Shown here: positions 7,896-23,550 of the stretch, piece after piece
Position numbering within the stretch: position 1 is the first letter of the stretch
Layout of the letters: each line of letters opens with the position of its first letter
Virus record (IMG/VR): IMGVR_UViG_3300008267_000011
Coordinates: 30,416 to 94,415 of that record
Source: a virus
DNA: 64,000 nucleotides
Reading direction: 5' to 3' (one strand)
The notes under the pieces: generated by a model
The model's database searches: none
Told to the model about the DNA's origin: nothing
Seen by the model: only the letters and a program-made list of their open reading frames with translations
Program-made: the position numbers and the translations under genes

Positions 7896-8410
7896 TACCA
7901 AGTAGAAACATAAGAAATACTCGTGTAACGATGCCAATTCTCAATATGTTGGTAGATGCACCTTTTTTGGAAAAGACGACGTTAAAAGCCTTGTACCCAC
8001 AGTGGAAGGGAGAATCTATAGCGGAAATAAAAGAGAAGCATAGTGATAATCCGTATAGGGTAAGAATAGGAACGCCAAACACTGATAAAGCGATGCAAGC
8101 GGATCACGCCTTGTTTATACAAAGTTACCTATCGTATAATCCAATCACAAAACAGCTCGAAAAGCGAGAGCTATTACCATATCGTAACGTTGAGAAAGTT
8201 TATATAGGGGAGCAGAGAATAGATGAGCATAATTACGGTAACTACACTCTATTCATAAACGGATCTATTGTAGCGGAGGACCTAATTCTGTTGAATAATA
8301 AGCAATCTTTATTGGAGATAATAAAGAAGTTGACGGAAGAGGTAGCAGAGTTACGGGTAGAAGTTCACAAATTACACACTCAAACCAAACAACAACCTAT
8401 TTATAGATAA
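7892..8410 (+). CDS. hypothetical protein with C-terminal coiled coil
   Basis: A 172-residue protein whose start overlaps the stop of the large structural gene (ATGA). Its middle is a beta-rich region (for example KVYIGEQRIDEHNYGNYTLF). The last 40 residues form a likely coiled coil (LLEIIKKLTEEVAELRVEV) followed by a polar Gln-rich tail. I recognise no family. Coupling to the preceding gene suggests a small partner or attachment protein for it. The TATTTAT box of the next operon lies inside its last codons. Confidence 0.6.
   Translation: MIPSRNIRNTRVTMPILNMLVDAPFLEKTTLKALYPQWKGESIAEIKEKHSDNPYRVRIGTPNTDKAMQADHALFIQSYLSYNPITKQLEKRELLPYRNVEKVYIGEQRIDEHNYGNYTLFINGSIVAEDLILLNNKQSLLEIIKKLTEEVAELRVEVHKLHTQTKQQPIYR
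8398..8404 (+). promoter_or_regulatory. TATTTAT box (putative late promoter)
   Basis: TATTTAT lies in the last codons of the preceding gene, 12 bases before the ATG at 8410. It would drive the accessory cluster from 8410 to about 14.4 kb as a late operon. Confidence 0.5.
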
Positions 8411-10623
8411 TGAGTTCGTTATCAAAATTTATAGTAGAGTCCCTTCTCAAGGAAGCGGGTGAGCAAACAACAGTTCTGTTCCCTGGAGGATTCAAGCCAC
8501 CTCATGGAGGACATCTGGAGTTAGCAACACGCTACGCCGAGCAGCCTAATGTTGGGCAAGTTATCATACTCATTGGCCCTGAGCCAAGAGAAGGTATTAC
8601 TAGAGACCAAAGCATTGCTATATGGAGAGAGTTAACTAAGAACAACAGCAAAATTCTTATCCAAAAAACCGAAGTAAACAGCCCGCTAGCAGCAGCATAT
8701 AAGTTTTTAGAGACAGCTAAACCGGGATCCTATGCACTTGCAGCAAGTTCAAAGGGAGACGACTACAAAAGAGTCCAGCAATTTGTTGCAGGACACCAAC
8801 CTGGAGCAAAGTACGCAAAAGAAGGTGTGGAAGTTGTAGAGCTTCCGTTGGATACTAAACCGTTAGTCTACAAAGATAGGTCACCAAAAGCAGAAAAGTA
8901 TGTACCAGGAAAGAGTGAGAATGGAAAGGGAGTTAGCGCTAGTATTTTGAGAGCTGACTTAAAGAATGGAGATCAAGAAGCTTTTGCAACAAACTATCCA
9001 AACGTAGCAGACAAAGGAACTCTTGATAGAGTGTTTGGTATTTTAAAAAAAAAGCTATCTGAAGAGATCCAACCTAGCGATTTGTTTTCCAAAATGAAAA
9101 TGAGATTTAAAGACTTCCTTCAAAAAGTCAATCAAGAAAAAGAGGAAACAAAGCAAGCATTCACCCTTATCGCACAGGCAGCCCAAGGGAAAAGAAAACT
9201 CACTCCAGAAGAGCAAAAGCAGGTTGGAGAGCAAATGAGAGATGTTCTTAAAACAATGGGAATTGGAGCAGCCACAATGCTACCAGGAGGAACGATATAC
9301 TTCTTAATAATCAAACTATTGAAATTGGAAAAATACACAATGCCATCGTCTTTCATAACCGAAAAGGTGCAATTAAATGAGGGTGGTGGAGCAGGTCACT
9401 TAGCTCATCCGTATGAGGACTTGGAGCTAACCTTCGCAGACATTAAGGAAATGATAAAGGCTGCCTTATCAGGCAAACTAGAATATGCACAAGAAAAGTT
9501 AGACGGTCAAAACCTATTAGTTACTTACAAGGATGGCAGAGTTAGAGCAGCAAGAAACAAAACTGAGCTCAAGAATTATGGCCAAGAAAGTAAGACAATT
9601 GAACAAGTAGCCGAGAAATTTGCAGGTAGAGGAGCTATACAGGCAGCCTTTGTTGAAACTATGCGTGACTTAGAGTCAGCAATTAACAAGCTAGACAAGA
9701 CACAAAAAGAAACTTTCTTCAAGAATGGACAGAGGTTCATGAACTTGGAGATCCTCTATCCCGACACACAAAACGTGATTCCTTATGGAGCAACTTTAAT
9801 TAGAATGCACCACTTTAAGGAGTATGATCAAAATGCAAAAGAGGTTGCAACAGATAACAAAGGCGTAGAGTTGCTTCAAAGAGCATTCGACAATGTACAG
9901 GCACAAGAGTCTGATCAAAAAACCTTTGAAATCGGAGTCACAAACCCAGCAACAATTAAGCAAGATGCAGACTACGCTAGCCAAGAAAAGCAATTCATTG
10001 CCATGGCTGATGACGTTAAGCGAAAATATAACCTTGGCGATGAGACTAAGGTGAGTGAGTATGTTAAAAAATACTGGACTGACTTTGTCAAAGATAACGC
10101 AGAGCGTTACAATTACGAAGTTCCTACAGATGTACTAGATATGGTTGTAAATCGTTGGGCATTTACTGACAAATCCATCTCTTTACCAAACGTAAAAGCT
10201 AAAATAGCTAATGAAGAGTTTGCAAGTTGGTTTATCAACTTTGACAAAGGATCAAACGTAGAAGAGGTTAAAAAAAGAATACTGAGACCTATTGAGCAGT
10301 TGTTCCTAAAATTAGGAGTTAGGGTGTTAAAGAACATTGAGAACCTAACAGCAGTTAACCCAAACGACTCTACAAAAAAGATTAAGCAAAGCGTATCTGC
10401 AGCAATCAGAGGAATCCAAGACGCAATCAACAACGAAACTATTGCAGACAACGATAAGGCAATTAAGTTTTTAAGACGTGAATTGGGAAGATTAAAAGAC
10501 ATTGGAGGCTTTGAAGCTATTGTTCCGACTGAGGGGGTAGTATTTAGATATAAGGGTAAGCTGTATAAGCTTACTGGAGCCTTCGCACCCGTTAACCAAT
10601 TATTAGGCTATTTAAGATTTTAA
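8410..10623 (+). CDS. nucleotidyltransferase-polynucleotide ligase fusion, possible injected head enzyme
   Basis: The 737 residues hold several modules. Residues 1-16 resemble a capsid-targeting tag with cleavage-like sites FIVE/S and LLKE/A. Residues about 20-220 form a HxGH-superfamily nucleotidylyltransferase, with GGFKPPHGGH (H32, H35) and a later VSASILR matching the ISSTxxR motif. Residues about 257-310 contain a hydrophobic segment, IGAATMLPGGTIYFLI, resembling LETM1-like domains. Residues about 335-737 carry covalent nucleotidyltransferase (ligase) motifs: K363-L-D-G (motif I), E447 in FMNLEI (motif III-like), E708-G (motif IV) and K720-L-T-G (motif V). A helical insertion of about 250 residues separates motifs III and IV. 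RNA versus DNA substrate cannot be told. It may repair or modify nucleic acid ends. Confidence 0.75.
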   Translation: MSSLSKFIVESLLKEAGEQTTVLFPGGFKPPHGGHLELATRYAEQPNVGQVIILIGPEPREGITRDQSIAIWRELTKNNSKILIQKTEVNSPLAAAYKFLETAKPGSYALAASSKGDDYKRVQQFVAGHQPGAKYAKEGVEVVELPLDTKPLVYKDRSPKAEKYVPGKSENGKGVSASILRADLKNGDQEAFATNYPNVADKGTLDRVFGILKKKLSEEIQPSDLFSKMKMRFKDFLQKVNQEKEETKQAFTLIAQAAQGKRKLTPEEQKQVGEQMRDVLKTMGIGAATMLPGGTIYFLIIKLLKLEKYTMPSSFITEKVQLNEGGGAGHLAHPYEDLELTFADIKEMIKAALSGKLEYAQEKLDGQNLLVTYKDGRVRAARNKTELKNYGQESKTIEQVAEKFAGRGAIQAAFVETMRDLESAINKLDKTQKETFFKNGQRFMNLEILYPDTQNVIPYGATLIRMHHFKEYDQNAKEVATDNKGVELLQRAFDNVQAQESDQKTFEIGVTNPATIKQDADYASQEKQFIAMADDVKRKYNLGDETKVSEYVKKYWTDFVKDNAERYNYEVPTDVLDMVVNRWAFTDKSISLPNVKAKIANEEFASWFINFDKGSNVEEVKKRILRPIEQLFLKLGVRVLKNIENLTAVNPNDSTKKIKQSVSAAIRGIQDAINNETIADNDKAIKFLRRELGRLKDIGGFEAIVPTEGVVFRYKGKLYKLTGAFAPVNQLLGYLRF

Positions 10624-10624
10624 T

Positions 10625-10930
10625 ATGAAACTAAAAAAATTAATTCCTCTAGAGGAAAAGAAAGAGGCGATAGCCTCATCACCAGCAACTAACCTAACTC
10701 TTCACTTTGACAAAGGCTTTCAAGCTGTAGGTGAAGAAGGTACTCCTGAAGCAAACTTTACTATTAGCATCAGTAGTGTTGGTGGAAAGGAGTTCTTTCG
10801 TGGGGTAGGCGATAGTGCTGAAGCTGATAAAATTACAGAGGGTGTTAAGTTGGAATTACGCAGAGCAATGCGTAAGTTCGATAAACACGTTCAGCATATA
10901 CTAGATAAATACAAGTTTCATACAAGATGA
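10625..10930 (+). CDS. small tagged protein, putative internal head protein
   Basis: A 101-residue protein starting 1 base after the ligase fusion. Its N-terminus MKLKKLIPLEEKK belongs to the tag family seen on many proteins here. The expected LREA cleavage site is changed to LEEK, so processing is less certain. The remainder (FTISISSVGGKEFFRGVG, then a helical, basic C-terminus) matches no family I know. Packaging in the capsid is inference from the tag. Confidence 0.55.
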   Translation: MKLKKLIPLEEKKEAIASSPATNLTLHFDKGFQAVGEEGTPEANFTISISSVGGKEFFRGVGDSAEADKITEGVKLELRRAMRKFDKHVQHILDKYKFHTR

Positions 10931-11415
10931 GTTATTACGTTACGACCAACAAAAAATCCTTTACAGAGCATTCTGAAGGCGAAGTCTGGGAAGAGTCAGG
11001 CAAGACATGGACTATTCGAAATGGTGTCAAGCGCACCGTGTCTAAGATGGAATCTTTCCGCAAACAAATTATTACTCCAATCGCATGTCCACACTGTGGA
11101 ATGAAGATGGAAAGTCCAGTGCACAAGTGGGCTTGGAACACACATAAGATGTGTTTTAATTGCGTTGTAGACATGGAACATGAGATTATGAAGGTAGGTA
11201 GACTTGAGGAGTATCAAAACGCTCTATTTAAGGCAAACATGGAATCTTTCTATGGAGACCTAGAGCAGTTTGTTCAAGAGTTTGCAAAAGAAAAAACAAC
11301 CGTTTTCACCGAAGATGGTGTAAAAGAGAACTGGGTTGATAACAGTGGTAAAGTGATAGAGGAGATAGGTAAGAAAGAATTAGAAGCACTAAAATCAAAA
11401 ATTGAAGAGGTATGA
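10927..11415 (+). CDS. zinc-ribbon protein, unknown function
   Basis: A 162-residue protein overlapping the preceding stop (ATGA). Two cysteine pairs, C54-P-H-C57 and C76-F-N-C79, form a probable zinc ribbon in the middle. The C-terminal third is helical and acidic (LEQFVQEFAKEK, then KKELEALKSKIEEV). It has no capsid-like tag. Small zinc-ribbon proteins in phages often bind nucleic acid or host transcription machinery, but nothing here decides that. Confidence 0.55.
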   Translation: MSYYVTTNKKSFTEHSEGEVWEESGKTWTIRNGVKRTVSKMESFRKQIITPIACPHCGMKMESPVHKWAWNTHKMCFNCVVDMEHEIMKVGRLEEYQNALFKANMESFYGDLEQFVQEFAKEKTTVFTEDGVKENWVDNSGKVIEEIGKKELEALKSKIEEV

Positions 11416-12023
11416 CGGATGCAATTTGGGTTGCAATAATCGGAGGGGTAATTGGGCCCGTAATTGTATTATCTATCAAGTGGTGGTTTGACCATAAGAT
11501 GGGTAAGAAAAAGACTGATATGGTCACTGAGGCGTTGTTAGTTGGAGACTTGATCACTAACAAATTAGACTCAGTTAAGGAAGAGTATGGAGCAGACCGT
11601 GTATGGATTAGTCAATTTCACAACGGTGGTCATTTTTATCCAACCGGAAAGAGCATAGCTAAGTTCAGTATCTTTTATGAGACTGTATCAGCAAACGCAC
11701 CATCTCTCCAACTCAACCTAAAAAACATTCCAGTAGCACTATTCTCAAGAAGCTTCAATCAACTACTATCTCACAACATAATTCACATTGAAGACTTCAA
11801 AGATGAGACTGTAGCAACTTATGGATTAAAGTACTTTGCAGAAGAGTATAAAACAAAGTCGCAATATTTATATGCGATAAAGAGCTTTGAAGGAAAGTTC
11901 ATAGCTATTTTAGGGATTGACTACACAACTAGAAAGCACAAGCTAACCCATGAAGATGATGATGAGCTAATGAGAATTGCAACATCGCTTGGTGGAGTAC
12001 TAGCAGGACATTTAAAGGTATGA
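11412..12023 (+). CDS. membrane-anchored GAF-like domain protein
   Basis: The 203-residue protein begins with one membrane segment (residues about 4-22, AIWVAIIGGVIGPVIVLSI) followed by a basic stretch, predicting an inner-membrane anchor with a cytoplasmic C-terminal domain. That domain (about 45-200) has a GAF/PAS-like pattern: an alternating core around ADRVWISQFHNGG, a middle helix, and a final GVLAGHL helix. GAF domains bind small ligands or mediate dimerisation. No output domain is fused, so sensing or host-membrane interference is speculation. It is translationally coupled on both sides (ATGA overlaps). Confidence 0.5.
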   Translation: MTDAIWVAIIGGVIGPVIVLSIKWWFDHKMGKKKTDMVTEALLVGDLITNKLDSVKEEYGADRVWISQFHNGGHFYPTGKSIAKFSIFYETVSANAPSLQLNLKNIPVALFSRSFNQLLSHNIIHIEDFKDETVATYGLKYFAEEYKTKSQYLYAIKSFEGKFIAILGIDYTTRKHKLTHEDDDELMRIATSLGGVLAGHLKV

Positions 12024-12544
12024 CAAACGAAGAATCAAAAGGGCTTTGGGCAAACATACGAGCTAAAAGAGCACGTGGTGAGAAGCCTGCCCGTAAAGGT
12101 TCAGATGCCTACAACAAAGCAGTAGCAGCTGCTAAAAAGATCAACGCTACAAACGAAGAGCGTGAGGAAGAAAAAGACAGACCAGCACAAACAATTACAA
12201 CTGGAACAAAGGCAGCAATGCCAGTAGGTTGGTACGAAACTACAATGTGCGAGACTTGTGCAATTGCTCTACTAGAAGACATTAAAGCTGGTAAGTTTCC
12301 ACTTACAGAAGCCGAGTACCAAGGACGTAAAGTTCCACTTGGCAAGCCTATGAGAGGCGATGTCAAGAAGTTCAAGGTATATGTCAAGAAGGGAGATAAA
12401 GTTGTTAAAGTTAACTTTGGAGACCCTAACATGAAAATAAAAAAGTCAAATCCAGAAAGACGTAAATCATTCAGAGCAAGACACCGTTGTGCCACTCCAG
12501 GTCCAAGATGGAAAGCTCGTTACTGGTCTTGTAGAAAATGGTAA
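12020..12544 (+). CDS. conserved basic phage protein with Cys/His-rich C-terminus
   Basis: A 174-residue, strongly basic protein coupled to the upstream gene. The N-terminus (LWANIRAKRARGEKPARKGS) is a small basic module common in phage proteins. C77-E-T-C80 and a C-terminal patch with H155, C157 and C171 (RHRCATPG and YWSCRKW) could together form a zinc site. From memory, the C-terminal VNFGDPNMKIKK...SFRARHRC...YWSC pattern recurs in many marine T4-like phages without assigned function. DNA binding or head association is plausible from the charge, but unproven. Confidence 0.55.
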   Translation: MTNEESKGLWANIRAKRARGEKPARKGSDAYNKAVAAAKKINATNEEREEEKDRPAQTITTGTKAAMPVGWYETTMCETCAIALLEDIKAGKFPLTEAEYQGRKVPLGKPMRGDVKKFKVYVKKGDKVVKVNFGDPNMKIKKSNPERRKSFRARHRCATPGPRWKARYWSCRKW

Positions 12545-12550
12545 TCAAAC

Positions 12551-13132
12551 ATGATTAAGTTAGGAAAAATACTACAAGAGGCTTCTAAGACTGGAGCAAT
12601 GACTGGAACGCAGGAAAGAGAGCTTAGCACAGGCTTACGTAGCATACATTGGAAGCATGCGGATTTTGAGCGTTATGCAATAAACAGCTCCACACCTCAC
12701 AGTACTATTAACTTTGGTGGATGTGGTATATTTGCAAAGTTGCTTTATTACAATATGCGCAAATATTTAAACATAACACCAGAAATCATTTGCATTGACC
12801 TAGATGAGCATCAGATAAGTCCAGGGGAAATTAACGATTACAAGACCGTACAGGAGTATAATGAAGACGGCAATATGTGCATACACATAGTGTTAAAGTT
12901 AGGCGATAAGTACATAGACTCATCAGGAATACATGCTTTTTCTTGGTTTGAGCAACAAGTGTATCGTCATCCTCTTTGTCAACAAGAAGGAATGACAATA
13001 CAAACATTAACTAGATGGTGCGCATCAAGCAACAGCTGGAACCCTACATTCAATAGATACAACATCGGAGACATAAATGACGATATGGTCAAAGTGATGA
13101 AATTTGCAAAAAAAAGCGGAATAAAAAAATAA
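12551..13132 (+). CDS. tagged protein with papain/transglutaminase-like Cys-His-Asp pattern
   Basis: A 193-residue protein with N-terminal tag MIKLGKILQEAS; gp21-type cleavage would fall after E10 (LQE/A). The body shows the order expected for a papain- or transglutaminase-fold hydrolase. A Cys sits at the start of a helix (GGC58GIFAKLLYYNM), a strand carries a His (CIH112IVLKLGDKY), and an Asp follows in YID123SSG. If real, it would be a protease, amidase or acyltransferase delivered with the genome. The family call rests on motif order only. Confidence 0.5.
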   Translation: MIKLGKILQEASKTGAMTGTQERELSTGLRSIHWKHADFERYAINSSTPHSTINFGGCGIFAKLLYYNMRKYLNITPEIICIDLDEHQISPGEINDYKTVQEYNEDGNMCIHIVLKLGDKYIDSSGIHAFSWFEQQVYRHPLCQQEGMTIQTLTRWCASSNSWNPTFNRYNIGDINDDMVKVMKFAKKSGIKK

Positions 13133-13138
13133 CTAAAC

Positions 13139-14158
13139 GTGCCATATAAAGTTAAAAAGCAAGGAGACAAGTACGTGGTATACAAAAAAGATACTGGTAA
13201 ACGTGTAGGCGCTACTGCTGGAAACAAAGAAGCATTACGAAAGTATATGGCAGCCTTGCACATAAACACTAAAGAATCGACAATGAAATTAAAAAACCTT
13301 CTTCCCGAAGACGCAGCCACAGACGTCCAAGACCTTATTAAAAACGTATCTAACTACGAAGAGTTTGTTAATAAACTAGGTCAGTTAGCGCAAGACCCTA
13401 AAGTACAAGCTTTCTTGAAATCTGGAAAAGCAGACGGAGATCAGACAGATGATAAGTTTACAGCAACATCGAAAGCGATTCCTGTAAAAGAACTAAGACC
13501 AACTCAAAATGAGATTGACGTAGACGGATCGCTAAAATGGCCTCTAACCAAACCTGACTCACTCAAAAACTGCTTACAGAAAGGACCAATAACAATTAAA
13601 GCACCAGTTGTCACATACAATGGAGAGTTTATTATAGACGGTCACCACAGATGGAGCCAACTGTACGCCATGAACAAAGAAGGGCAGATCAATTGCGTAG
13701 ATTTAACAGGACCTAAGATGGACCCAATCCAAGTACTAAAAGTAGTTCAGCTTGCAATAGCAGCTGACCTAGGTAAGGTACCAGTAGCTACAGTCAAGGG
13801 AAATAACTTACTTAAACTCGATGGTAAGCAAGTAGCAGAGTACGTAAAGAAGACTATTACTGGAGATTGTGTAAAGGTATTTAATACAATGCGTAGTGCT
13901 GCATTAGGCAAACTCGATCCTAACAGCATAGCAGGTAAGGTGATTGTTCCAAACGTCATGGAGATGAAAAAAACATCACAACCAGCACCAGGAGCACCAA
14001 AGAGAGATGTAATGCCTCAGACAGACGATGCTACAAACGCTATGAGTATGATTGCAAAAGGTGCAGTAAACTACAACGATCCTTACGTAGCTGAACAAAA
14101 ATTACGTAGAGCAATTCGCAAAGCAATATTGCAAGAAGTCAAAAGACTAAAAAAATAA
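13139..14158 (+). CDS. ParB/sulfiredoxin-like domain protein with internal tagged start
   Basis: The frame opens with GTG at 13139 and gives 339 residues. Residues 1-48 (MPYKVKKQGDKYVVYKKDTG) form a small basic module often found alone in phages. At M49 (ATG at 13283) a second N-terminus, MKLKNLLPEDA, matches the capsid-tag family. The real product may therefore start at 13283 (291 aa), or the two parts may be fused. The central region has a ParB/Srx nuclease-like signature, IIDGHHRWSQLY near residue 165, typical of ParB-fold proteins that bind nucleotides or cut DNA. The C-terminus is basic and helical (RRAIRKAILQEVKRLKK). No helix-turn-helix partner is visible. Confidence 0.6.
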   Translation: MPYKVKKQGDKYVVYKKDTGKRVGATAGNKEALRKYMAALHINTKESTMKLKNLLPEDAATDVQDLIKNVSNYEEFVNKLGQLAQDPKVQAFLKSGKADGDQTDDKFTATSKAIPVKELRPTQNEIDVDGSLKWPLTKPDSLKNCLQKGPITIKAPVVTYNGEFIIDGHHRWSQLYAMNKEGQINCVDLTGPKMDPIQVLKVVQLAIAADLGKVPVATVKGNNLLKLDGKQVAEYVKKTITGDCVKVFNTMRSAALGKLDPNSIAGKVIVPNVMEMKKTSQPAPGAPKRDVMPQTDDATNAMSMIAKGAVNYNDPYVAEQKLRRAIRKAILQEVKRLKK

Positions 14159-14186
14159 GTTTAACCAAACCCCACGTAAATGGAAG

Positions 14187-14399
14187 GTGATAGTAGACAA
14201 CAAGAAAATATCGAAACAGACCTTAGCGACCTGGTGCATGATGCTGGCTCTATTCTTCAATCCTCTTGGATTCGACGTAGTCCAGTACTGGCTAATTGCC
14301 TTAACTGGGAGTCTATGGAGCGCCAATATTGCTTTGTATTGTGTGGCGGGACTATTCTTTGGGCTATCCATCTTGCTACGCTGTTTATCTAAACAATGA
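14187..14399 (+). CDS. small two-span membrane protein
   Basis: The 70-residue frame starts at GTG 14187 (no in-frame ATG lies between the upstream gene's end and this point). It has two hydrophobic helices, about residues 12-30 (TLATWCMMLALFFNPLGFD) and 45-65 (IALYCVAGLFFGLSILL), joined by a short loop. I recall similar small proteins in marine T4-like phages, without a known role. A competing frame at 14180 (ATG) has no such features and was rejected. It could be holin-like by topology, but nothing else supports lysis. Confidence 0.5.
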   Translation: MIVDNKKISKQTLATWCMMLALFFNPLGFDVVQYWLIALTGSLWSANIALYCVAGLFFGLSILLRCLSKQ

Positions 14400-14400
14400 C

Positions 14401-14407
14401 TATTTAT
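14401..14407 (+). promoter_or_regulatory. TATTTAT box (putative late promoter)
   Basis: TATTTAT lies 11 bases before the ATG at 14412, two bases after the preceding stop. If it is a -10 element, transcription would start at or next to the ATG. Confidence 0.5.
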
Positions 14408-14411
14408 TAAC

Positions 14412-14690
14412 ATGAACACGAACCCAAAAACATTAGTAGCCGTAAAGTGGGCCGACCTAAAGACATCGTCAGACTTAACAGATTTCATATTAGATCAAAT
14501 GCAAGACGGTGATCAAAACGCACAAAGCTATATAACAAGACAATGGTTAGCAGGCACACTCACAGCATTAAAGGATCTTGATTCTACAATTGAAGATGAG
14601 GAAGACTTTGATCCAAAGCTAACAAGAGAGCTTGCGGAAGTAGCAAAGGTCGTTACCGCAAAAGGAATACAAATAATTTTAGTAGAATGA
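14412..14690 (+). CDS. hypothetical acidic protein
   Basis: A 92-residue, helical, acidic protein (TIEDEEDFDPKLTRELAEV) directly behind a TATTTAT box. I see no motif, tag or membrane segment. Its stop overlaps the start of the next, tagged gene (ATGA), so it is the first gene of a small late block with 14687 and 15094. Confidence 0.55.
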   Translation: MNTNPKTLVAVKWADLKTSSDLTDFILDQMQDGDQNAQSYITRQWLAGTLTALKDLDSTIEDEEDFDPKLTRELAEVAKVVTAKGIQIILVE

Positions 14691-15094
14691 AACTGATCAA
14701 CCTAATACCTCTAAGAGAGGCAGACGAGCCAACTTCACCAGAATTGATCGCTACTCCTTACTTCCGTGAATTTCAAACAGCTCATGGATACAAGCCATTG
14801 TTTAAGTACTTAGGTACAAAGAGCGAGGAGATGATCTTTGTTGCTGACTTAACAGAATTTGGCATGCTAGATTTGATCATCAGCGATGCAAAGCTTGTTG
14901 CTAAGATAACGGAGAAGACTGCAATCTTTGGAATCGTATACACTCTAACTGGATTAGAGCGTTTTGATGCAACTGTTTGTGCAATGAAACAAAAGGATGG
15001 TGTTATCGAGCGTATCACATTCGATAACAAAGACAAGAAAAATTTTGGAGCAGCACAAACAAACTTCTTAAAAGTAATTGAAGACCAAAAGTAA
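14687..15094 (+). CDS. tagged protein, putative internal head protein
   Basis: The 135-residue protein starts MKLINLIPLREADEP, the clearest copy of the tag; gp21-type cleavage would fall between E11 and A12 (LRE/A). The mature part would be about 124 residues of mixed alpha/beta structure (EMIFVADLTEFGMLDLII; FGIVYTLTGLERF) with no family I recognise. By analogy with T4 IPI-III it could be packaged in the head and injected. It is translationally coupled to both neighbours. Confidence 0.6.
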   Translation: MKLINLIPLREADEPTSPELIATPYFREFQTAHGYKPLFKYLGTKSEEMIFVADLTEFGMLDLIISDAKLVAKITEKTAIFGIVYTLTGLERFDATVCAMKQKDGVIERITFDNKDKKNFGAAQTNFLKVIEDQK

Positions 15095-15759
15095 TGTTTA
15101 AAGTACTAGACTATAAATTAGTACCACATCCATACATTAGCGAGCCACTACCAGACGAATCAGTATTTGAAAGGTTAGTGGCTCCTGAATTTTTTGATAG
15201 GTTTGGCTACGAGCTAACCTACATCGAAAGCCTCTATCATCAACACAACAACATACCAGGACACGTACTAGTGCCAGGAAGTCCTACAGATGCAGCAGCT
15301 TGCATACAGGACTGGATGATACAGGAACAACAACATCCAAACATTTTCTTAGATCATTGCCATCTTAATACGAGATATGCTTACAAAGGAGAAGCGTTAG
15401 AGCAGTTAAAAAGGCTTAGCAAAAAGTACCCACGGTTGGTAAAGATTCTAAACATTAAACCAAAATACATGGTTGATTTTTGTGTGGATTACATTACGGA
15501 CGGAAAGGTAGTTGAGTTGGTTCACATAGAGCACGACTTCCATGAATTTGAGCAGTACAAGAGCCATATTGCTTTTTGCGAAGTTCTTATAGCGGAGGCA
15601 AATTGGGGTAAGGTCTACAAAGATTTAAAGCCGTTTTTCGAGACAGAATACAACTACGATGAGTATGCACAAGCGCAGTACAAGGCAAAATACTTTGGAT
15701 TTGATAAGCTAGACTACTTACATGAGCCAAAAATGTTATCGTATAAGAAGGTTTACTGA
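15094..15759 (+). CDS. hypothetical protein
   Basis: A 221-residue soluble protein with many aromatic and His residues (for example LYHQHNN, LDHCHLNTRY and VHIEHDFHEFEQY). It has no capsid-type tag, membrane segment or motif that I can assign. The His/Asp/Glu-rich stretches could bind metal, but no known catalytic pattern is complete. It overlaps the previous stop (TAATG) and ends the small late block before the box at 15760. Confidence 0.55.
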   Translation: MFKVLDYKLVPHPYISEPLPDESVFERLVAPEFFDRFGYELTYIESLYHQHNNIPGHVLVPGSPTDAAACIQDWMIQEQQHPNIFLDHCHLNTRYAYKGEALEQLKRLSKKYPRLVKILNIKPKYMVDFCVDYITDGKVVELVHIEHDFHEFEQYKSHIAFCEVLIAEANWGKVYKDLKPFFETEYNYDEYAQAQYKAKYFGFDKLDYLHEPKMLSYKKVY

Positions 15760-15766
15760 TATTTAT
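15760..15766 (+). promoter_or_regulatory. TATTTAT box (putative late promoter)
   Basis: TATTTAT overlaps the preceding TGA region and lies 23 bases before the ATG at 15783. It heads the block 15783, 16097, terminase. Confidence 0.5.
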
Positions 15767-15782
15767 TTAAAAACCACATAAA

Positions 15783-16100
15783 ATGCGTATAAAAGAATCA
15801 CAATTTAGAGCACTTGTTCGTAGAGAGATTAAAGCTCTTTTGGAAGCTAACGAAGAAGAGCCAGAAATGACTGGAGCTCCAGAAGCAGGCGCTGAAGAAC
15901 AACCAGAACCAGAACAAGAAGAGGTTAGCAAAGCTACAAGAATGGCACAAAAGCTTGTTGAGAAGATCAAACAAGATAGCGAACTTACATCAGCTGAGTC
16001 TATCCAGGATATGTTTGTTGTGTTTATTGAATCAATGGGATTCAGCAACGAAACAAAGCTTAGAATTTTACAAAGCGTTAAATCAGAAACGATCCGATGA
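15783..16100 (+). CDS. acidic tagged head-associated protein
   Basis: A 105-residue protein with an amphipathic N-terminal helix (MRIKESQFRALVRREIKALLEA) whose end fits the prohead protease rule (LLE/A after E21). An acidic Glu/Pro linker (about 23-48) and a compact helical domain follow (SIQDMFVVFIESMGFSNETKLRIL). The layout of helix, acidic linker and small domain is typical of prohead core proteins. It lies two genes before the terminase and overlaps the next gene (ATGA). Its exact T4 counterpart is unknown. Confidence 0.55.
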   Translation: MRIKESQFRALVRREIKALLEANEEEPEMTGAPEAGAEEQPEPEQEEVSKATRMAQKLVEKIKQDSELTSAESIQDMFVVFIESMGFSNETKLRILQSVKSETIR

Positions 16101-16468
16101 AAACTTCGCATATAATTAAGCGTCTGCAAGAAGATACAGCTTACCAAGAGTTCTTTAAAAAGGCTATGGATAAGTTTGGTATTAGTTCAATTGGTGATTT
16201 AGATGGAGAAAAGAAAAAGCAATTTTTCAACTACATCGACAAAAACTACACAGCTAAGGTTGAAGAAGGTTATATGCCAAATGATAGCAGTATCTCAAGA
16301 GAGGTACAGGCCGTTGGAAATCAGATCGACACTATACTAGGAGACCTTAGTGCAAGATTTAAAGTACCAAGCCAAGACTTGTCCAAGTTAGCAGATCTTA
16401 TTTGGGACTACGCTGATGTATATGCAGAATCTCGAATTGAAGCCTTAGAAGGCGATAGAAGTTTCTAA
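16097..16468 (+). CDS. putative prohead core-associated protein
   Basis: A 123-residue protein. The N-terminus MKTSHIIKRLQEDTAYQ carries a possible cleavage site (LQE/D at 12/13). It continues with a module, EFFKKAMDKFGISSIGDL then KKKQFFNYIDKNY, that I recall as widespread in T4-like phage proteins. The C-terminal half is helical (SRFKVPSQDL-like, LADLIWDYADVYAESR). The position just upstream of the terminase suggests a head assembly or packaging accessory role. T4 gp16 (small terminase) is an alternative, but no DNA-binding motif supports it. Confidence 0.5.
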   Translation: MKTSHIIKRLQEDTAYQEFFKKAMDKFGISSIGDLDGEKKKQFFNYIDKNYTAKVEEGYMPNDSSISREVQAVGNQIDTILGDLSARFKVPSQDLSKLADLIWDYADVYAESRIEALEGDRSF

Positions 16469-16485
16469 AACAATAACAGTTACGT

Positions 16486-18060: not shown

Positions 18061-18068
18061 GTACCACA

Positions 18069-18075
18069 TATTTAT
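18069..18075 (+). promoter_or_regulatory. TATTTAT box (putative late promoter)
   Basis: TATTTAT lies 25 bases before the portal ATG at 18094, in the gap after the terminase. Confidence 0.5.
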
Positions 18076-18093
18076 CTAAAAGCGCTTTAAAAT

Positions 18094-19902
18094 ATGGCAG
18101 AGAACAATCCTTCTCTATTTCAGAGGTTACAGAGATTGTTTTCCACCGATGTTATCATTCGTAACGTTGGAGGGAATCAATTAAAAGTTATAGACGTTGA
18201 CAAAGTACAGTCAAGTGGTAACATTGATCAGAATCGACGTGTAGATCGCTTCTCCCGTATGTATCAAAACATGCCGGGATTTTCCTATTATCATGGACAG
18301 CTTCACTTAGCTACTCGTCTAGAGTTGTTTAAGGACTACGAAGCAATGGACACAGATAGTATTATTTCATCCGCTTTGGATTTGTACGCTGATGAGTGTA
18401 CAACAAAAGATGAGATGGGTAATGTTTTAATTATCCGATCTCCAAATGAAAAAGTACAGAAGGTATTGCATAACTTATTTTACGACATTCTAAATGTTGA
18501 ATTTAACTTATGGCCTTGGACTAGAAACCTACTAAAGTACGGAGACTTCTTCTTAAAACTAAACATAGCAGATAAGTACGGTATCATTGGTGTAGAGCCA
18601 ATGGCAGCTTATGAGATCATTCGTGAAGAAAACTTTGATCCAGAGAACCCATCGAGAGTTAGATTCAAGAGAGATTTTTCTGCACTAGCTGCAAGATCTC
18701 ACGTCGTTAACACAGAGACTGAGGAGTTTGAGAACTACGAAGTTGCTCACTTCCGTCTATTAACGGACACAAACTTCTTGCCATACGGACGTTCTCTAAT
18801 TGAACCTGCAAGAAAGGTTTGGAAACAGATCACTCTAATGGAAGATGCGATGTTGATTCACCGTATTATGCGTGCTCCAGACAAGCGTGTATTTAAAATC
18901 GATATCGGAAACATTCCACCAAACGAAGTAGATGCTTACATGGAAGGAATGATCAACCGTATCAAGAAAGTTCCTTTTGTCGATCCTGAGACAGGACAAT
19001 ACAACTTGAAGTACAACATGATGAACCTACTTGAGGACTTCTACTTCCCAGTACGTGGAGGAGAGAGTGCAACAGCTGTAGAGTCTTTGGCGGGTGTACA
19101 ATATGACAGTATCCAAGACATTGAATACCTTAAAGCTCGTTTGTTGGGATCATTGAAGATTCCAAAAGCTTTCCTAGGATTTGAAGAAGACATCTCAGGT
19201 AAGGCAACACTAGCATCACAAGACTTTCGTTTTGCTAGAACAGTTGAGCGTATTCAACGCATTATTGCTAGTGAGCTTTACAAGATAGCAATCATTCACC
19301 TTTACTCACAAGGATTTAACGACCAAGACCTAGTTGATTTTGAACTAGAACTGACTGTAGGATCATCCGTATACGAAAAAGAAAAGGTTGAGATTTGGTC
19401 AAGCAAAGTTACCCTAGCTGGTGATATGGTTGACAAAAAGCTATTTAGTCGTCAATGGGTATATGAAAACCTATTTGGTATGTCCGATGATGAGTTCCTA
19501 AAAGAACAAGAGAGAATGGTTCAAGATTACAAATTACAATTTCGTCTTGAGCAGATTAAAACAGAAGGTAATGATCCAGTTAAGACAGGAATGTCCTTTG
19601 GTACTCCACACGACCTTGCATCACTATATAAAGGTAATGGAGGAGTTCCAGGTGGGTACGATGAGAAGATGCCTGAAGGAGGCTGGCCAGGTGCTGGACG
19701 TCCAGAGGAATCAGGTACATATGGTACACATAAGCACCCATTAGGTTGGGATCCTTTGGGAAACAAAGGAAGAAGGGTTAATGAAGAGTTTACAATGTTT
19801 ATTAGAAATTTGAAAGGGAGTGCATTGAAGCAGACAATTGGTAACACATCTGAAATTTCAGAGCCAGATTTGCTCTCAGAGTCTAACATTTTAAACGATT
19901 AA
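18094..19902 (+). CDS. 20: portal vertex protein, gp20
   Basis: A 602-residue protein matching the T4 gp20 family (524 aa). Twelve copies form the ring through which DNA enters and leaves, and to which terminase and neck attach. Typical segments are visible: the N-terminal crown/wing region with MDTDSIISSALDLYADECT, the clip region near WPWTRNLLKYGDFF, and KIPKAFLGFEEDISGKATLA before the long helix. The C-terminal extension is Gly/Pro-rich (MPEGGWPGAGRPEE), which explains the extra length. It lies in the conserved order terminase, portal, protease, scaffold, capsid. Confidence 0.95.
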   Translation: MAENNPSLFQRLQRLFSTDVIIRNVGGNQLKVIDVDKVQSSGNIDQNRRVDRFSRMYQNMPGFSYYHGQLHLATRLELFKDYEAMDTDSIISSALDLYADECTTKDEMGNVLIIRSPNEKVQKVLHNLFYDILNVEFNLWPWTRNLLKYGDFFLKLNIADKYGIIGVEPMAAYEIIREENFDPENPSRVRFKRDFSALAARSHVVNTETEEFENYEVAHFRLLTDTNFLPYGRSLIEPARKVWKQITLMEDAMLIHRIMRAPDKRVFKIDIGNIPPNEVDAYMEGMINRIKKVPFVDPETGQYNLKYNMMNLLEDFYFPVRGGESATAVESLAGVQYDSIQDIEYLKARLLGSLKIPKAFLGFEEDISGKATLASQDFRFARTVERIQRIIASELYKIAIIHLYSQGFNDQDLVDFELELTVGSSVYEKEKVEIWSSKVTLAGDMVDKKLFSRQWVYENLFGMSDDEFLKEQERMVQDYKLQFRLEQIKTEGNDPVKTGMSFGTPHDLASLYKGNGGVPGGYDEKMPEGGWPGAGRPEESGTYGTHKHPLGWDPLGNKGRRVNEEFTMFIRNLKGSALKQTIGNTSEISEPDLLSESNILND

Positions 19903-19915
19903 CCGAACTAATACA

Positions 19916-19922
19916 TATTTAT
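19916..19922 (+). promoter_or_regulatory. TATTTAT box (putative late promoter)
   Basis: TATTTAT lies 13 bases before the ATG at 19929, after the portal stop. Confidence 0.5.
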
Positions 19923-19928
19923 TACTAG

Positions 19929-20798
19929 ATGAAAAAATCGAGCCACAACAAAATTAAGAATACAATAATCTTGTTTGAGTTGCTTACAAGACAAGTAGCA
20001 TCCGATACGCTGAAGGGTGTCGAAAAGTCGCCTGCATTAACCATCATTAAGAACCACTTCAAGTCCAACTCAGCACTAGGAAAGGAATTGGTAATGTATC
20101 AGACGTTGGTAAACGAAAGCTACAAAAGTAAGGCTAAGGCAACTTCGTTGATGAGTACTGTAGTTGGGTTAAGAAAGAAGCTAACTAACGAATCTCTAAA
20201 AAAAGAGAAGTATGAATTGATCCGCGAGATCAAAAAGCATTACGATCTAGCAGCCTTCTTTAATACTAAGATTCAAAGCTACAAACTATTTGCATCAATA
20301 TACAGAGTATTTGAAGGTGTATCAGTAGCACGTGCAGCTGAGTTAGTCGATAGTCGTTTTACGATTATTGAGCACTTGACTCGAACAAAGCAAAAGACTG
20401 CAGAGGACGGATCAGCTATCGTACTTAATGAGTATAAGAAGCAGGATCAGGATGTTCGTTTACTAGCGTATCAGTTAATGGTTGATAAGTTTAATGCAAA
20501 GTATGCAGACCTTTCACCAAGACAAAGAAACATCCTAAAGGAATACATCAACAACGTATCAAACACTGATAACCTAAGAGAGTTTATGCTTAAGGAAGCA
20601 TACGCTTTGAAGTTGGAATTACAGAAGCAAGCAAAAGCTGTTACTGATAAGGTTGTTAAGATTAAACTTAACGAAGCTGTTGGTTTGATGAAGAAGTACG
20701 AAAAGACAAAGAGTGTTAAAGAGCACAACGTGCTATCACTTTTATTATACCATGAACTACTAAAAGAGCTAAGACATGCGCAAAAAGGATCTAAGTGA
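19929..20798 (+). CDS. hypothetical head-region protein
   Basis: A 289-residue, Lys-rich, almost entirely helical protein with no capsid-type tag. It contains LLTRQVASDTLKG near the N-terminus and a long helical C-terminus (YALKLELQKQAKAVTDKVVK). Its place between portal and protease matches genes for prohead core or accessory proteins in other T4-like phages (T4 has gp67 and gp68 there), but length and sequence give no clear match. It overlaps the next gene by 23 bases. Confidence 0.55.
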   Translation: MKKSSHNKIKNTIILFELLTRQVASDTLKGVEKSPALTIIKNHFKSNSALGKELVMYQTLVNESYKSKAKATSLMSTVVGLRKKLTNESLKKEKYELIREIKKHYDLAAFFNTKIQSYKLFASIYRVFEGVSVARAAELVDSRFTIIEHLTRTKQKTAEDGSAIVLNEYKKQDQDVRLLAYQLMVDKFNAKYADLSPRQRNILKEYINNVSNTDNLREFMLKEAYALKLELQKQAKAVTDKVVKIKLNEAVGLMKKYEKTKSVKEHNVLSLLLYHELLKELRHAQKGSK

Positions 20799-21525
20799 AG
20801 TACAGGCGTTTGTTAAAGAGCTGAACAAAAAGCTTAAAGAAGGTAGTACTACTGATGGAGCTGGTGGTTATCCAACTCCTAAAGCTTTTGTAGGTGATGA
20901 GGATGCTGAAGGAAGTAAGAAAGGCTTAGATGCCTCTACAGCATTTACTGTCAAGCCACCAAAGAAAAAAAAGTTCTTCATCGGATATAAGGACCAGGGA
21001 GTTCACTTATCCGATATCAAAGAAGCAAACTACAGACAATTCAAAGAGGATGCTTCTATTCCAAACCACAAGAAAATCAATCAAGCCATTCTTGAGATCA
21101 ATCGCAAGATTTCCGAAATTAATAAGCTATTTGAACACTCCATAAAGCTAAAAACAGAAACTCAAGTAGGAGATGAAAAATTGTGGAAGAAAACTAACGA
21201 AGCTTTGCTTAAGATTCATAGAAGATTAAACGAAGCAACTAAGCGTGTAAGAAACGTTGCAAATCTCAAAGAGATAGAAGTCAATACAGCTAAGGACAAG
21301 TTTCTAAAGATTTTTATGAGAGCTGGTATGACTATCGATGCACAAGACGTTGAGATAGTAAAGCAAGGCAACACCCACATTATCGATGTGATGATAAATG
21401 GGGAACCTTCTGGATTTGATCTAGAAAACGACATCCTAACTTATCAAGGCTTTGATAAAGAAGTTGAGCTGGGAAATATTAACAGAGAACAAGAGGTTGC
21501 CGACAAGCTTAAAACAATATTCTGA
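20776..21525 (+). CDS. putative prohead core protein with protease site
   Basis: A 249-residue basic and helical protein. After an N-terminal helix (MRKKDLSEVQAFVKELNKKL) the sequence LKE/G at residues 20-23 fits gp21 cleavage and is followed by a flexible Gly/Thr/Pro stretch. The middle is helical (KKINQAILEINRKISEINKLF). The C-terminal domain looks beta-rich (DVEIVKQGNTHIIDVMINGE). It lies directly upstream of the protease gene, where core proteins are normally encoded. An internal core component cleaved during maturation is the likeliest role. Confidence 0.5.
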   Translation: MRKKDLSEVQAFVKELNKKLKEGSTTDGAGGYPTPKAFVGDEDAEGSKKGLDASTAFTVKPPKKKKFFIGYKDQGVHLSDIKEANYRQFKEDASIPNHKKINQAILEINRKISEINKLFEHSIKLKTETQVGDEKLWKKTNEALLKIHRRLNEATKRVRNVANLKEIEVNTAKDKFLKIFMRAGMTIDAQDVEIVKQGNTHIIDVMINGEPSGFDLENDILTYQGFDKEVELGNINREQEVADKLKTIF

Positions 21526-21532
21526 TATTTAT
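21526..21532 (+). promoter_or_regulatory. TATTTAT box (putative late promoter)
   Basis: TATTTAT lies 11 bases before the ATG of the prohead protease at 21537. Confidence 0.5.
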
Positions 21533-21536
21533 TAAC

Positions 21537-22136
21537 ATGAAAACATTACTTATAGATTCAATCGGATGCCTCTCTGTAACCCCAGAGCAGATCAACGAGT
21601 CTATGCAACAAAACAACGGAAAGGTTATTCTATCCGGAGTTATGCAAAGAGCAGATGCCACTAACCAAAATGGCAGACAATACCCTGAGGATATCCTACG
21701 TCGTGAAGCTGACAAGTATAAGCAAGTATTTGTAACAGAGCGTAGAGCATTAGGAGAATTAGATCATCCAGACTCATCCGTAGTGAACCTACAAAACGTA
21801 TCGCATAACGTAGTTGATCTATGGTGGAATGGTGGTGATTTAATGGGTAAGATAGAAATCCTAAGCACCCCATCAGGAAACATTGCAAAAGAGTTGCTAA
21901 AGTCCGGTATCCGTTTAGGAATCAGCTCTCGTGGCATGGGTAGTGTTAAAAATATTGGAGAAGGAAAGGTAGAAGTTCAAGACGACTTTGAAATTGTTTG
22001 TTGGGACTTGGTATCTAATCCATCTACACACGGTGCATTTATGTCACCACTTAACGAATCGGTATCTCACGACAACAAGCAAAACAAGTACACAAAGGTA
22101 CACTCATTGATAAACGATATAATCTCAGTAATGTAA
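21537..22136 (+). CDS. 21: prohead core protease, gp21
   Basis: The 199-residue serine protease matches T4 gp21 (212 aa). It is built into the prohead core and cleaves scaffold, core proteins, capsid protein and tagged internal proteins after Glu in L/I-x-E sites. The family's His box is GELDH77P and the Ser box is GIS130-S131-RGMG. The typical NQNGRQYP and WDLVSNPSTHGA segments are also present. It lies between core-type genes and scaffold gp22. Its specificity explains the shared L/I-x-E ends on the tags of neighbouring proteins. Confidence 0.93.
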   Translation: MKTLLIDSIGCLSVTPEQINESMQQNNGKVILSGVMQRADATNQNGRQYPEDILRREADKYKQVFVTERRALGELDHPDSSVVNLQNVSHNVVDLWWNGGDLMGKIEILSTPSGNIAKELLKSGIRLGISSRGMGSVKNIGEGKVEVQDDFEIVCWDLVSNPSTHGAFMSPLNESVSHDNKQNKYTKVHSLINDIISVM

Positions 22137-22137
22137 T

Positions 22138-22503
22138 ATGAAACTCAAGAAATTATTAGAAGGACTAGAAGGAGATTCCCCTAAAAAGACCACAAACGAA
22201 AAGGCTGCGTTCATTCAGGAAGTGAAAAAGTTTAACGAATACGGATCGGTAATCTATCGTACTGAGGATCTACGTCGTGTTGCTGAGGAGATCAATGAGC
22301 TTGTGACTAAAGCAGAAGCAGTAACCCTACAAGAAACTCAAGACTGGTTTGACGAGATTACGGTAAAGCGTAATCTAAAGACTTTGCGTGAAGGCAATAA
22401 GCAGTTTGGACAAACTGTGAAGGAAATCTCTAAACTACAACAACGTTTAGAATCTTTGTACGAAGAAATGGGTCACAATCTATCAAGATACTATGAGCTT
22501 TAA
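22138..22503 (+). CDS. tagged helical protein, putative prohead core component
   Basis: The 121-residue protein begins MKLKKLLEGLEGD, a tag copy with a cleavage-like LLE/G at residues 6-9. The rest is helical with a C-terminal coiled coil (EISKLQQRLESLYEEMG). It starts 1 base after the protease stop and overlaps the following tagged gene, so protease and tagged proteins are made together. A core or internal head protein is inferred from context. No specific T4 match is visible. Confidence 0.6.
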   Translation: MKLKKLLEGLEGDSPKKTTNEKAAFIQEVKKFNEYGSVIYRTEDLRRVAEEINELVTKAEAVTLQETQDWFDEITVKRNLKTLREGNKQFGQTVKEISKLQQRLESLYEEMGHNLSRYYEL

Positions 22504-22894
22504 AATACTCAAACTAAAAGACTTAATACCACTTCGTGAAGCTGAAGGTGACGAAGAGGAAGCTGGTGGTGGAAATCCATTTGCTGCTGCTGGAGGAGAC
22601 GAGGGTGGTGCTGAAGGTGGTGACGATGCTGCTGCTGCAGATGATGCAGGAGGTGATGAAGCCGGTGCTGAAGGTGGAGAAGAAGGAGGCGAAGAGGAAA
22701 CGGGAGATGCTAAGAAGCAGCCTGATTTAAAGTACCCTATTAAGTTCAATATTGGTAGAGTAAAAAAATACAACAATGCTGATTTTATTAGCAACCAAGG
22801 AGAATTAAAGAGCATCAACAGCAAGGGAATGACTGTAACAGTTCAACCAGACAATGTAGATGTGTTTGTGAATTTTAACGATATTATCGACTAA
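22493..22894 (+). CDS. tagged acidic low-complexity protein, prohead core-like
   Basis: The 133-residue protein carries a full tag, KLKDLIPLREAEGD, with a predicted cut at LRE/A after E16. Residues about 18-75 are almost only Gly, Ala, Glu and Asp, an acidic spacer like those of phage core and scaffold proteins. The C-terminal domain (about 78-133; KFNIGRVKKYNNADFIS and VDVFVNFNDI) is a small beta-rich fold I recall from other T4-like phages. A gp67/gp68-like core role is possible. Confidence 0.6.
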   Translation: MSFKILKLKDLIPLREAEGDEEEAGGGNPFAAAGGDEGGAEGGDDAAAADDAGGDEAGAEGGEEGGEEETGDAKKQPDLKYPIKFNIGRVKKYNNADFISNQGELKSINSKGMTVTVQPDNVDVFVNFNDIID

Positions 22895-23550
22895 TGAAAC
22901 TGCAACCAATACTAGAAGGAATCCTTAGAGAGGAAGAAGATAAGAAGCAAATTGCAGCCATGGACCAAGCTATGCAATCAGCAGCTGCTGAACTTGCTAA
23001 GTTGTATAAGGATAATGAGGCTGAGATTAAACAAGATGTTGAGCAATCAGAAGAAGAGCTCAATGAGTCTTTAGGAGCAGTAGCTATTATTGGATTTATC
23101 CTAGCTCTACCTAAAGTAGTGGAGTTGCTAGTTAAGGGAATAGGTAAAATCGTAGCTGTTTGGAAAAAGCTAGTTAAACCAGGACAAGCTAAGGGTAACG
23201 AAGAGGAGTTTGCTCATAACATTATTGAGTTTACGCACAAATGGCACAAGACCTACATTAAAGGATTGAAATGGATTCTACAGATGTCAGGAGTATTTAA
23301 GAAAGCAAACATTACTGGAGATGCTGCACAGATGAAAGCAGCAGAAGCAATATACTATACAATTATTGCAGGACTAGCAATTTACTCCGGAGTGGGTGCA
23401 GTAGGCGCATTTAAAGCAGCAGCTCAAGGAGCAGCACATGGCGGTAGCTTTTCGCTAGGAGCATTTGAAGCAGCTATGGCTTCTGTTAAGACGGGAGAAG
23501 TTGGAGAGTTTCTTGGGAAACTTGGACTAAAGGCTGCAAAAGCTGCATAA
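22894..23550 (+). CDS. tagged protein with hydrophobic helices, putative internal head protein
   Basis: The 218-residue protein starts MKLQPILEGILREEED, a tag with cleavage-like ILE/G (residues 6-9) and a second possible site ELNE/S near residue 57. Three hydrophobic stretches follow: AVAIIGFILALPKVVELLV, a middle helix around YIKGLKWILQM, and YYTIIAGLAIYSGVGAVGAF. The C-terminus is Ala/Gly-rich. A membrane-active protein stored in the capsid and released at infection is one reading. A structural core protein is another. It is the last gene of the protease block and overlaps the preceding stop by one base. Confidence 0.55.
   Translation: MKLQPILEGILREEEDKKQIAAMDQAMQSAAAELAKLYKDNEAEIKQDVEQSEEELNESLGAVAIIGFILALPKVVELLVKGIGKIVAVWKKLVKPGQAKGNEEEFAHNIIEFTHKWHKTYIKGLKWILQMSGVFKKANITGDAAQMKAAEAIYYTIIAGLAIYSGVGAVGAFKAAAQGAAHGGSFSLGAFEAAMASVKTGEVGEFLGKLGLKAAKAA

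Follow-up and report, generated by a model that had tools for sequence, protein, structure and literature searches.

Probable capsid-targeting propeptides ending in L/I-x-E on head-module genes of a T4-like phage and its relatives

We analysed a window of 64,000 nucleotides, bases 30416-94415 of the 94,415-base virus record IMGVR_UViG_3300008267_000011 from IMG/VR, for short N-terminal stretches ending in L/I-x-E (hereafter tags) that are carried by a series of genes in its head and packaging module. The window is part of the genome of a T4-like myovirus whose relatives include Flavobacterium phage immuto, Microcystis phage Mel-JY01 and many IMG/VR contigs, the last sampled as 80 loci kept of 179 related gp21 loci. 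Genes are named by their start position in the window, a slash marks a candidate cut, and the tags, sites and head genes given below lie on the plus strand. A run of mostly small genes (8410-16097) is followed by the terminase (16486), the portal (18094), 19929, 20776, the prohead protease gp21 (21537), 22138, 22493, 22894, a gp22-like gene (23693) and the capsid gene (24743); the names terminase, portal and gp22 rest on synteny with immuto, whose record is annotated. The first-pass annotation had placed gp21 at 21537, and this gene (21537..22136) indeed matched Peptidase_S77 (Pfam PF03420, 7e-29, 101 bits vs a cut-off of 27). The gp22-like scaffold protein (23693..24715), located before the capsid gene, has a net charge of -65 and 15 L/I-x-E sites vs 9.9 expected. 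The major capsid protein gp23 (24743..26359) is 54.5% identical to that of immuto and 52.1% to the Mel-JY01 homologue, and its previously noted site LIKE/G conforms to [LIV]-x-E throughout a set of 27 distinct sequences that includes this one; some have V at P3.

In T4, proteins reach the prohead core by means of capsid-targeting propeptides of 10-19 residues, with cleavage by gp21 after L/I-X-E (PMC9026906). T4 delivers its internal proteins into the cell by injection, and one of them, IPI, acts against a restriction system (PMC3012670 and PMC9391042). The first-pass annotation had proposed that up to twelve genes of the window carry such a tag, six with a start resembling MKLKxLIPLREA and the others with looser forms, and that they form a candidate set of internal head proteins. 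All of the listed N-termini were present where it had placed them, and each of the 12 proteins contains L/I-x-E in its first 25 residues. In all but one of them the next residue is A, G or S or an acidic one (D or E); 10625 has K. The shared start was borne out for a few genes: strict MKLxxLIPLxE is found in 10625, 14687 and inside the 22493 N-terminus (LKLKDLIPLRE), but 22138 and 22894 share MKLxxL only, with L-x-E later, 13283 reads MKLKNLLPE, and the remaining starts are looser.

Comparison across relatives indicated that the end of the tag is the part that is kept. Tags of six families were reduced to <60% mutual identity, and rows lacking the body anchor were left out of the count (one row of 22493, four rows of 22138, and also rows of 14687, 10625 and 22894). 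As a motif, L/I-x-E, the end typical of T4 tags, was present in 67/67 of the resulting non-redundant tags, whereas shuffling their residues gave an expectation of 29.9, and the +1, +3 and +4 spacings were found in 19, 28 and 26 tags (31.4, 28.7 and 27.1 in shuffles). In the 22493 family, one acidic body stands behind 20 tags that are <60% identical, several of them plainly unrelated, and L/I-x-E is present in 20/20, followed mostly by A. In the 14687 family the site shifts between residues 10 and 14 with L/I-x-E retained in 20/20 (alignment A3, by eye), and the motif was found in 17/17 non-redundant tags of 22138, in 7/7 of 10625 before KK[EQ][AV]I, and in 8/8 of 22894, where the +3 and +5 spacings are kept too. 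P3 and P1 are fixed and P2 is variable in 22138, 22493 and 8410. Orthologues of tagged genes retain L/I-x-E, which many other families lack. Tag sequence thus appears to vary freely, with L/I-x-E as the conserved part even behind unrelated tags.

We then used a site-anchored profile, trained on the tags of the IMG/VR relatives with the own record excluded, to ask where tags occur. Ten of 81 own-record genes passed the 99% shuffle threshold (0.8 expected), nine of them within 8410-23550; over a gene set of 82 this amounts to 9/20 in that region vs 1/62 elsewhere (p = 5e-6), seven of the nine belonging to training families. The tenth match, 29989, resembles a false positive. When the gene's own family was removed from the training set (leave-family-out, 1000 shuffles per gene), p was 0.001 for 8410 and for 14687 (tag MKLINLIPLRE/AD, 14687..14719, gene to 15094) and 0.005 for 10625 (MKLKKLIPLEE/KK, 10625..10657, gene to 10930), 12551 (MIKLGKILQE/AS, 12551..12580, gene to 13132) and 22493 (MSFKILKLKDLIPLRE/AE, 22493..22540, gene to 22894). 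Values rose to 0.035 for the weak tag of 20776 (..NKKLKE/GST, 20776..20841), 0.068 for 15783 (MRIKESQFRALVRREIKALLE/AN, 15783..15845, gene to 16100), 0.075 for 22894 (MKLQPILEGILRE/EE, 22894..22932, gene to 23550), only 0.09 for the tag-like MKLKNLLPE/D at 13283..13309, 0.20 for 22138 (MKLKKLLE/GL, 22138..22161, gene to 22503), 0.35 for 47969 and 0.84 for the tag-like start of 16097 (MKTSHIIKRLQE/DT, 16097..16132, gene to 16468), which the leave-out profile missed and whose L-x-E is present in 18/18 relatives. By this test 8410, 14687, 10625, 12551 and 22493 stand by themselves, and the case for 16097 and 22138 depends on how well the site is kept within their own families; 47969, named earlier as a possible member, is not above chance and was rejected. 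Across 47 loci (own included), 99/310 genes upstream of the terminase passed, compared with a single one of the 191 downstream of the capsid gene. Of the 99, 92 fall in five training families and the other seven in five families outside the training set. In the complete genome of immuto, which is outside the training set, 12/28 head-module genes vs 9/182 others passed at the 95% threshold (p 4e-7) and 7/28 vs 3/182 at 99% (p 3e-5), within head-module limits that we set ourselves for both immuto and Mel-JY01.

The claim that the tag is a shared module on unrelated bodies was supported. A DNA-level search of IMG/VR with an 11-residue tag found at least 119 stretches. Among the matches listed (119 loci, some of which are copies of already collected contigs), the tag occurred 128 times, 124 times in a frame of at least 40 residues and in 95 distinct proteins, and the tagged bodies fell into six clusters without mutual BLAST similarity (48, 34, 21, 17, 3 and 1 members); eight of these loci held at least two tag copies. 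In the first 80 of the listed loci, 53 had at least one of six clade marker genes in the stretch examined. The reversed pattern gave 0 hits in 14 records, 9 of which contain the true pattern. In one relative (L170), adjacent different bodies carry near-identical tags, and the tagged bodies before the terminase vary among relatives. Tagged proteins of relatives include 5'-nucleotidases (PF06941) in L032, above the curated cut-off, and in immuto, just below it; the NT5C profile begins at residue 17 (L032) or 24 (immuto), such that the tag precedes the domain. Two tagged proteins of L081, at 1072 and 2021, had no family match. The largest tagged cluster (L158 4429-6882 and related loci; 48/124 among the matches listed) comprises proteins of up to 818 aa that are repeated in some genomes, have another tag in the same frame after 405 residues and show no family match above the curated cut-off.

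Several results weigh against reading these N-termini as targeting tags. The shared N-termini might instead reflect gene starts that are AT-rich and Lys/Leu-rich, or a translation signal. In the own 94 kb record four unrelated-protein pairs reached a pairwise N-terminal similarity of at least 30, near the level of composition-preserving shuffles (n=12; mean 1.9, max 5), and the gene starts are A-rich. We therefore rejected pairwise similarity as in-record proof. The same test in immuto gave 23 pairs of at least 35 vs 1.4 in shuffles, an excess that comes from the phage's own two tag types (FDLKKFLVENKLT and MKKSQLRxIIKE) plus secretion-signal-like and fibre-protein pairs; RM378 was without enrichment (14 vs 8.2 at >=30, shuffle maximum 14), and Mel-JY01 was not significant (24 vs 19.4). 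The profile was likewise not significantly enriched in the Mel-JY01 head module (4/18 vs 17/209, p 0.07), so that the prediction that the motif would be less common outside head genes holds in immuto but not significantly in Mel-JY01. Leave-family-out testing failed outright for 3/12 listed genes (16097, 22138, 47969). In the 67-tag test the +5 spacing was also enriched (46 vs 25.8), in part because the tag leucines keep a fixed register. L/I-x-E near the start also occurs in the gp21 (95%), 19929 (100%), gp22-like 23693 (90%) and terminase (62%) families, and its presence alone is therefore not diagnostic. The positive control failed as well: the T4 internal proteins ipI, ipII and ipIII were missed (best scores 2.2, -2.5 and 0.3, off the known tag end), and the profile is therefore specific to this clade. 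Finally, our literature searches yielded no virion proteomics for phages of this clade. An origin in base composition or translation is nevertheless highly improbable, given that the L/I-x-E spacing is held at the protein level though the tags differ in sequence and length, and that the tag profile is all but absent downstream of the capsid gene (1/191). Judged from sequence, the tags are real.

The gene at 8410 (8410..10623) encodes the largest of the candidate cargo proteins, a chain of 737 aa in which the alignment (A1, 17 members) and the predicted model suggest a tag, a nucleotidyltransferase of NMNAT/PPAT-like type, a helical linker and a ligase-like domain. The tag (MSSLSKFIVESLLKE/AG, 8410..8454) has L/I at position 13 and E at position 15 in 17/17 sequences, with position 14 variable; the site is also present in L123 and Mel-JY01 (LSE in the latter). 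In the model the tag lies ahead of the first strand with a predicted local distance difference test score (pLDDT) of about 44-52. Foldseek matched the model to PPAT/ATP sulfurylase structures in the PDB (prob 1.00, E 3.2e-3; none at E <= 0.001) and to the RNA ligase 8uch (prob 0.72, E 0.046), and sequence searches gave no match in Pfam or the PDB. We take GGFKPPHxGH and KLDG to be motifs of this protein. The helical linker has a LETM1-like look (by eye).

A candidate internal cleavage site, LNE/GGG (9373..9381), lies before the ligase domain, inside a stretch of the model (309-330) with pLDDT <50. We gathered 31 distinct sequences, this one among them, by their downstream H[ML]xHP[YF] and K[LIV]DG motifs and not by L/I-x-E; 30 have [LI]-x-E/GG at this point, and the single miss (L102) reads LLLC/GG. 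The 639-aa Mel-JY01 homologue has IAE/GG. A 484 kb phage outside this selection (L253) also lacks the internal site, giving 30/32 overall; its chain joins a domain resembling part of 13283 (by eye), a nucleotidyltransferase and a ligase. Because the protein has both a tag and, in 30/32 sequences, this second site, it may be a polyprotein that is cut in the prohead into nucleotidyltransferase and ligase. The internal L/I-x-E/GG might instead be part of the ligase fold, a lesser but considerable possibility: E, G, G and the next H are invariant in 17/17, and L102 keeps GG with E replaced, which suggests that GG at least may be structural. Set against this, L102 also shows that the E can be lost, P2 is occupied by eight different residues with P3 always L/I in the 30, the linker upstream of the site ranges from 30 to 310 residues (12 alignment rows measured) and is of low confidence in the model, and in a 462 kb phage (L254) a stand-alone ligase begins with a tag-like stretch ending ILE/GG. 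If cleavage at the internal site of 8410 does occur, it would mean that a polyprotein is matured inside a phage head, and L102 offers a natural test case for whether both enzymes stay joined.

Going further, we tentatively propose, as a somewhat doubtful whole, that 8410 is a packaged polyprotein whose tag carries a nucleotide-forming (perhaps NAD-forming) enzyme and a nucleic-acid ligase into the head, that gp21 would remove the tag and split the two, and that both would be injected as a first-minute repair kit against nucleotide-draining or RNA/DNA-cutting defences, with the tag system swapping in other cargo. The link to NAD-depletion defences is our presumption. Separately, immuto gp088 (L086 8131-10851) is a 907-aa chain with an N-terminal nucleotidyltransferase-like part and an NMNAT-like part preceded by LAE/A (by eye); two HExxH-like motifs follow further on, and it is perhaps another polyprotein (by eye).

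Together, the modularity of the tag, its gp21-motif end, its concentration in the head and packaging module and its rarity elsewhere point to prohead targeting, and the N-termini are probably capsid-targeting propeptides of the T4 type. The steps we infer are that a short amphipathic segment of the tag would dock the protein on the prohead core and that cleavage after L/I-x-E by gp21, the phage's own S77 protease, would release the body within the head. The single set of internal head proteins did not survive, and the listed genes are probably a mixture. A core or scaffold class encoded around gp21 would comprise 20776, 22138, 22493 and 22894, which lie between the portal and scaffold genes, unlike the pre-terminase set; a cargo class encoded before the terminase would comprise 8410, 10625, 12551, 14687 and probably 13283, 15783 and 16097, and would probably enter the cell with the DNA. 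By analogy with T4, we lean towards injection of the pre-terminase set.

It is also conceivable, though unlikely, that the tagged proteins are without exception core or assembly factors of the prohead and end up degraded or retained, with no injected cargo among them. The position of the four genes between portal and scaffold fits such a role, as do internal L/I-x-E counts above shuffles in 20776 (6 vs 3.1, P 0.056), 22138 (5 vs 2.3, P 0.044) and the gp22-like protein, since the T4 core proteins are fragmented by gp21; these counts are for single proteins with modest p-values, and 22493 (0 vs 1.0) and 22894 (2 vs 3.0) showed no excess. Other findings fit it poorly: 8410 has enzyme-like domains and fewer internal L/I-x-E than shuffles (4 vs 8.3, P 0.058; 3/4 in low-confidence linkers of the model), 5'-nucleotidases bear tags, and the pre-terminase tagged bodies differ among relatives. 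Within the core class, 20776 and 22138 are probable core proteins and 22493 is an acidic core-type protein; the site of 20776 is poorly kept, with the best hydrophobic-x-E column found in only 67% of relatives. The conserved basic protein between the portal and 20776 (19929-20798) has 9 L/I-x-E vs 3.9 (P 0.012) and is itself a candidate core protein.

The kind of mechanism is already known, and the tags, cargo and layout are new variants of it. Like the tags of T4 IPI, IPII, IPIII and Alt, those described here are short N-terminal stretches, probably propeptides, with an L/I-x-E end on unrelated bodies, accompanied by a homologous S77 protease. Unlike in T4, many tagged genes lie before the terminase, a nucleotidyltransferase-ligase is among the probable cargo, as are 5'-nucleotidases in relatives, an internal cut is possible, and the tag sequences differ, a difference seen in the profile's failure to find the T4 tag and bearing on descent rather than mode of action. 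Systems with SPN3US/phiKZ-type propeptides likewise have a gp21-related protease that cuts after a motif ending in E, and ejected inner head proteins, but in SPN3US the motif is A-x-E and most propeptides exceed 100 residues. The N-terminus of phage P1 DarB suffices to carry a reporter into the head; it differs in its 30 residues and other head lineage, and the accessible part of that source reports no L/I-x-E tag family. Our literature searches turned up no account of tags like these in the clade, which does not prove that none has been published. The fast evolution of their bodies makes phage-injected proteins difficult to predict, and a tag recognisable in the sequence would provide a ranked candidate list of injected proteins for mostly uncultured aquatic phages. 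Immuto is one isolate in which the idea is testable, and the tag might also work as a delivery module.

The tagged bodies of the window had weak or no matches to PHROGs and Pfam. The 12551 protein may be a Cys-His-Asp (papain-like) hydrolase: C58, H112 and D123 are invariant in 3/3 sequences, and the model (pLDDT 70, from 3 sequences) weakly matched protein-glutaminase 8z3i (Z 5.7, root-mean-square deviation 3.9, 112 aligned). The tag-like stretch at 13283 follows a 47-aa domain, MPYKVKK...AALHIN (13139-13280), within the open reading frame 13139-14158, and a search of the PDB by sequence gave one match that is not meaningful (E 0.18). This small domain is also found in relatives; a methionine stands at the tag-like start in 7/18 such proteins listed (own included), and in other MPYKVKK-domain proteins the domain ends in a basic helix. 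Relatives of 15783 have tag ends reading ..LLEA, ..IMEAD, ..VLREE and ..MLKEG.

A few further observations were made in passing. Two overlapping small frames occupy 14180-14399, one of which seems to correspond to a small membrane-like protein (MxALFFNPLGFD..) present in relatives, with the other resembling an out-of-frame shadow (both by eye). In the 462 kb phage L254, the neighbouring genes 51-914 and 1474-2739 begin tag-like, with ..SILE/A and MKFLKSYEEFLNENLILE/GG, and the second of these starts resembles the T4 tag. IREE/IKEA helices are found at the N-termini of tail-region genes in this phage (47969-48280, below the 95% tag threshold) and in immuto (L085 31525-31944, between the 95% and 99% thresholds).

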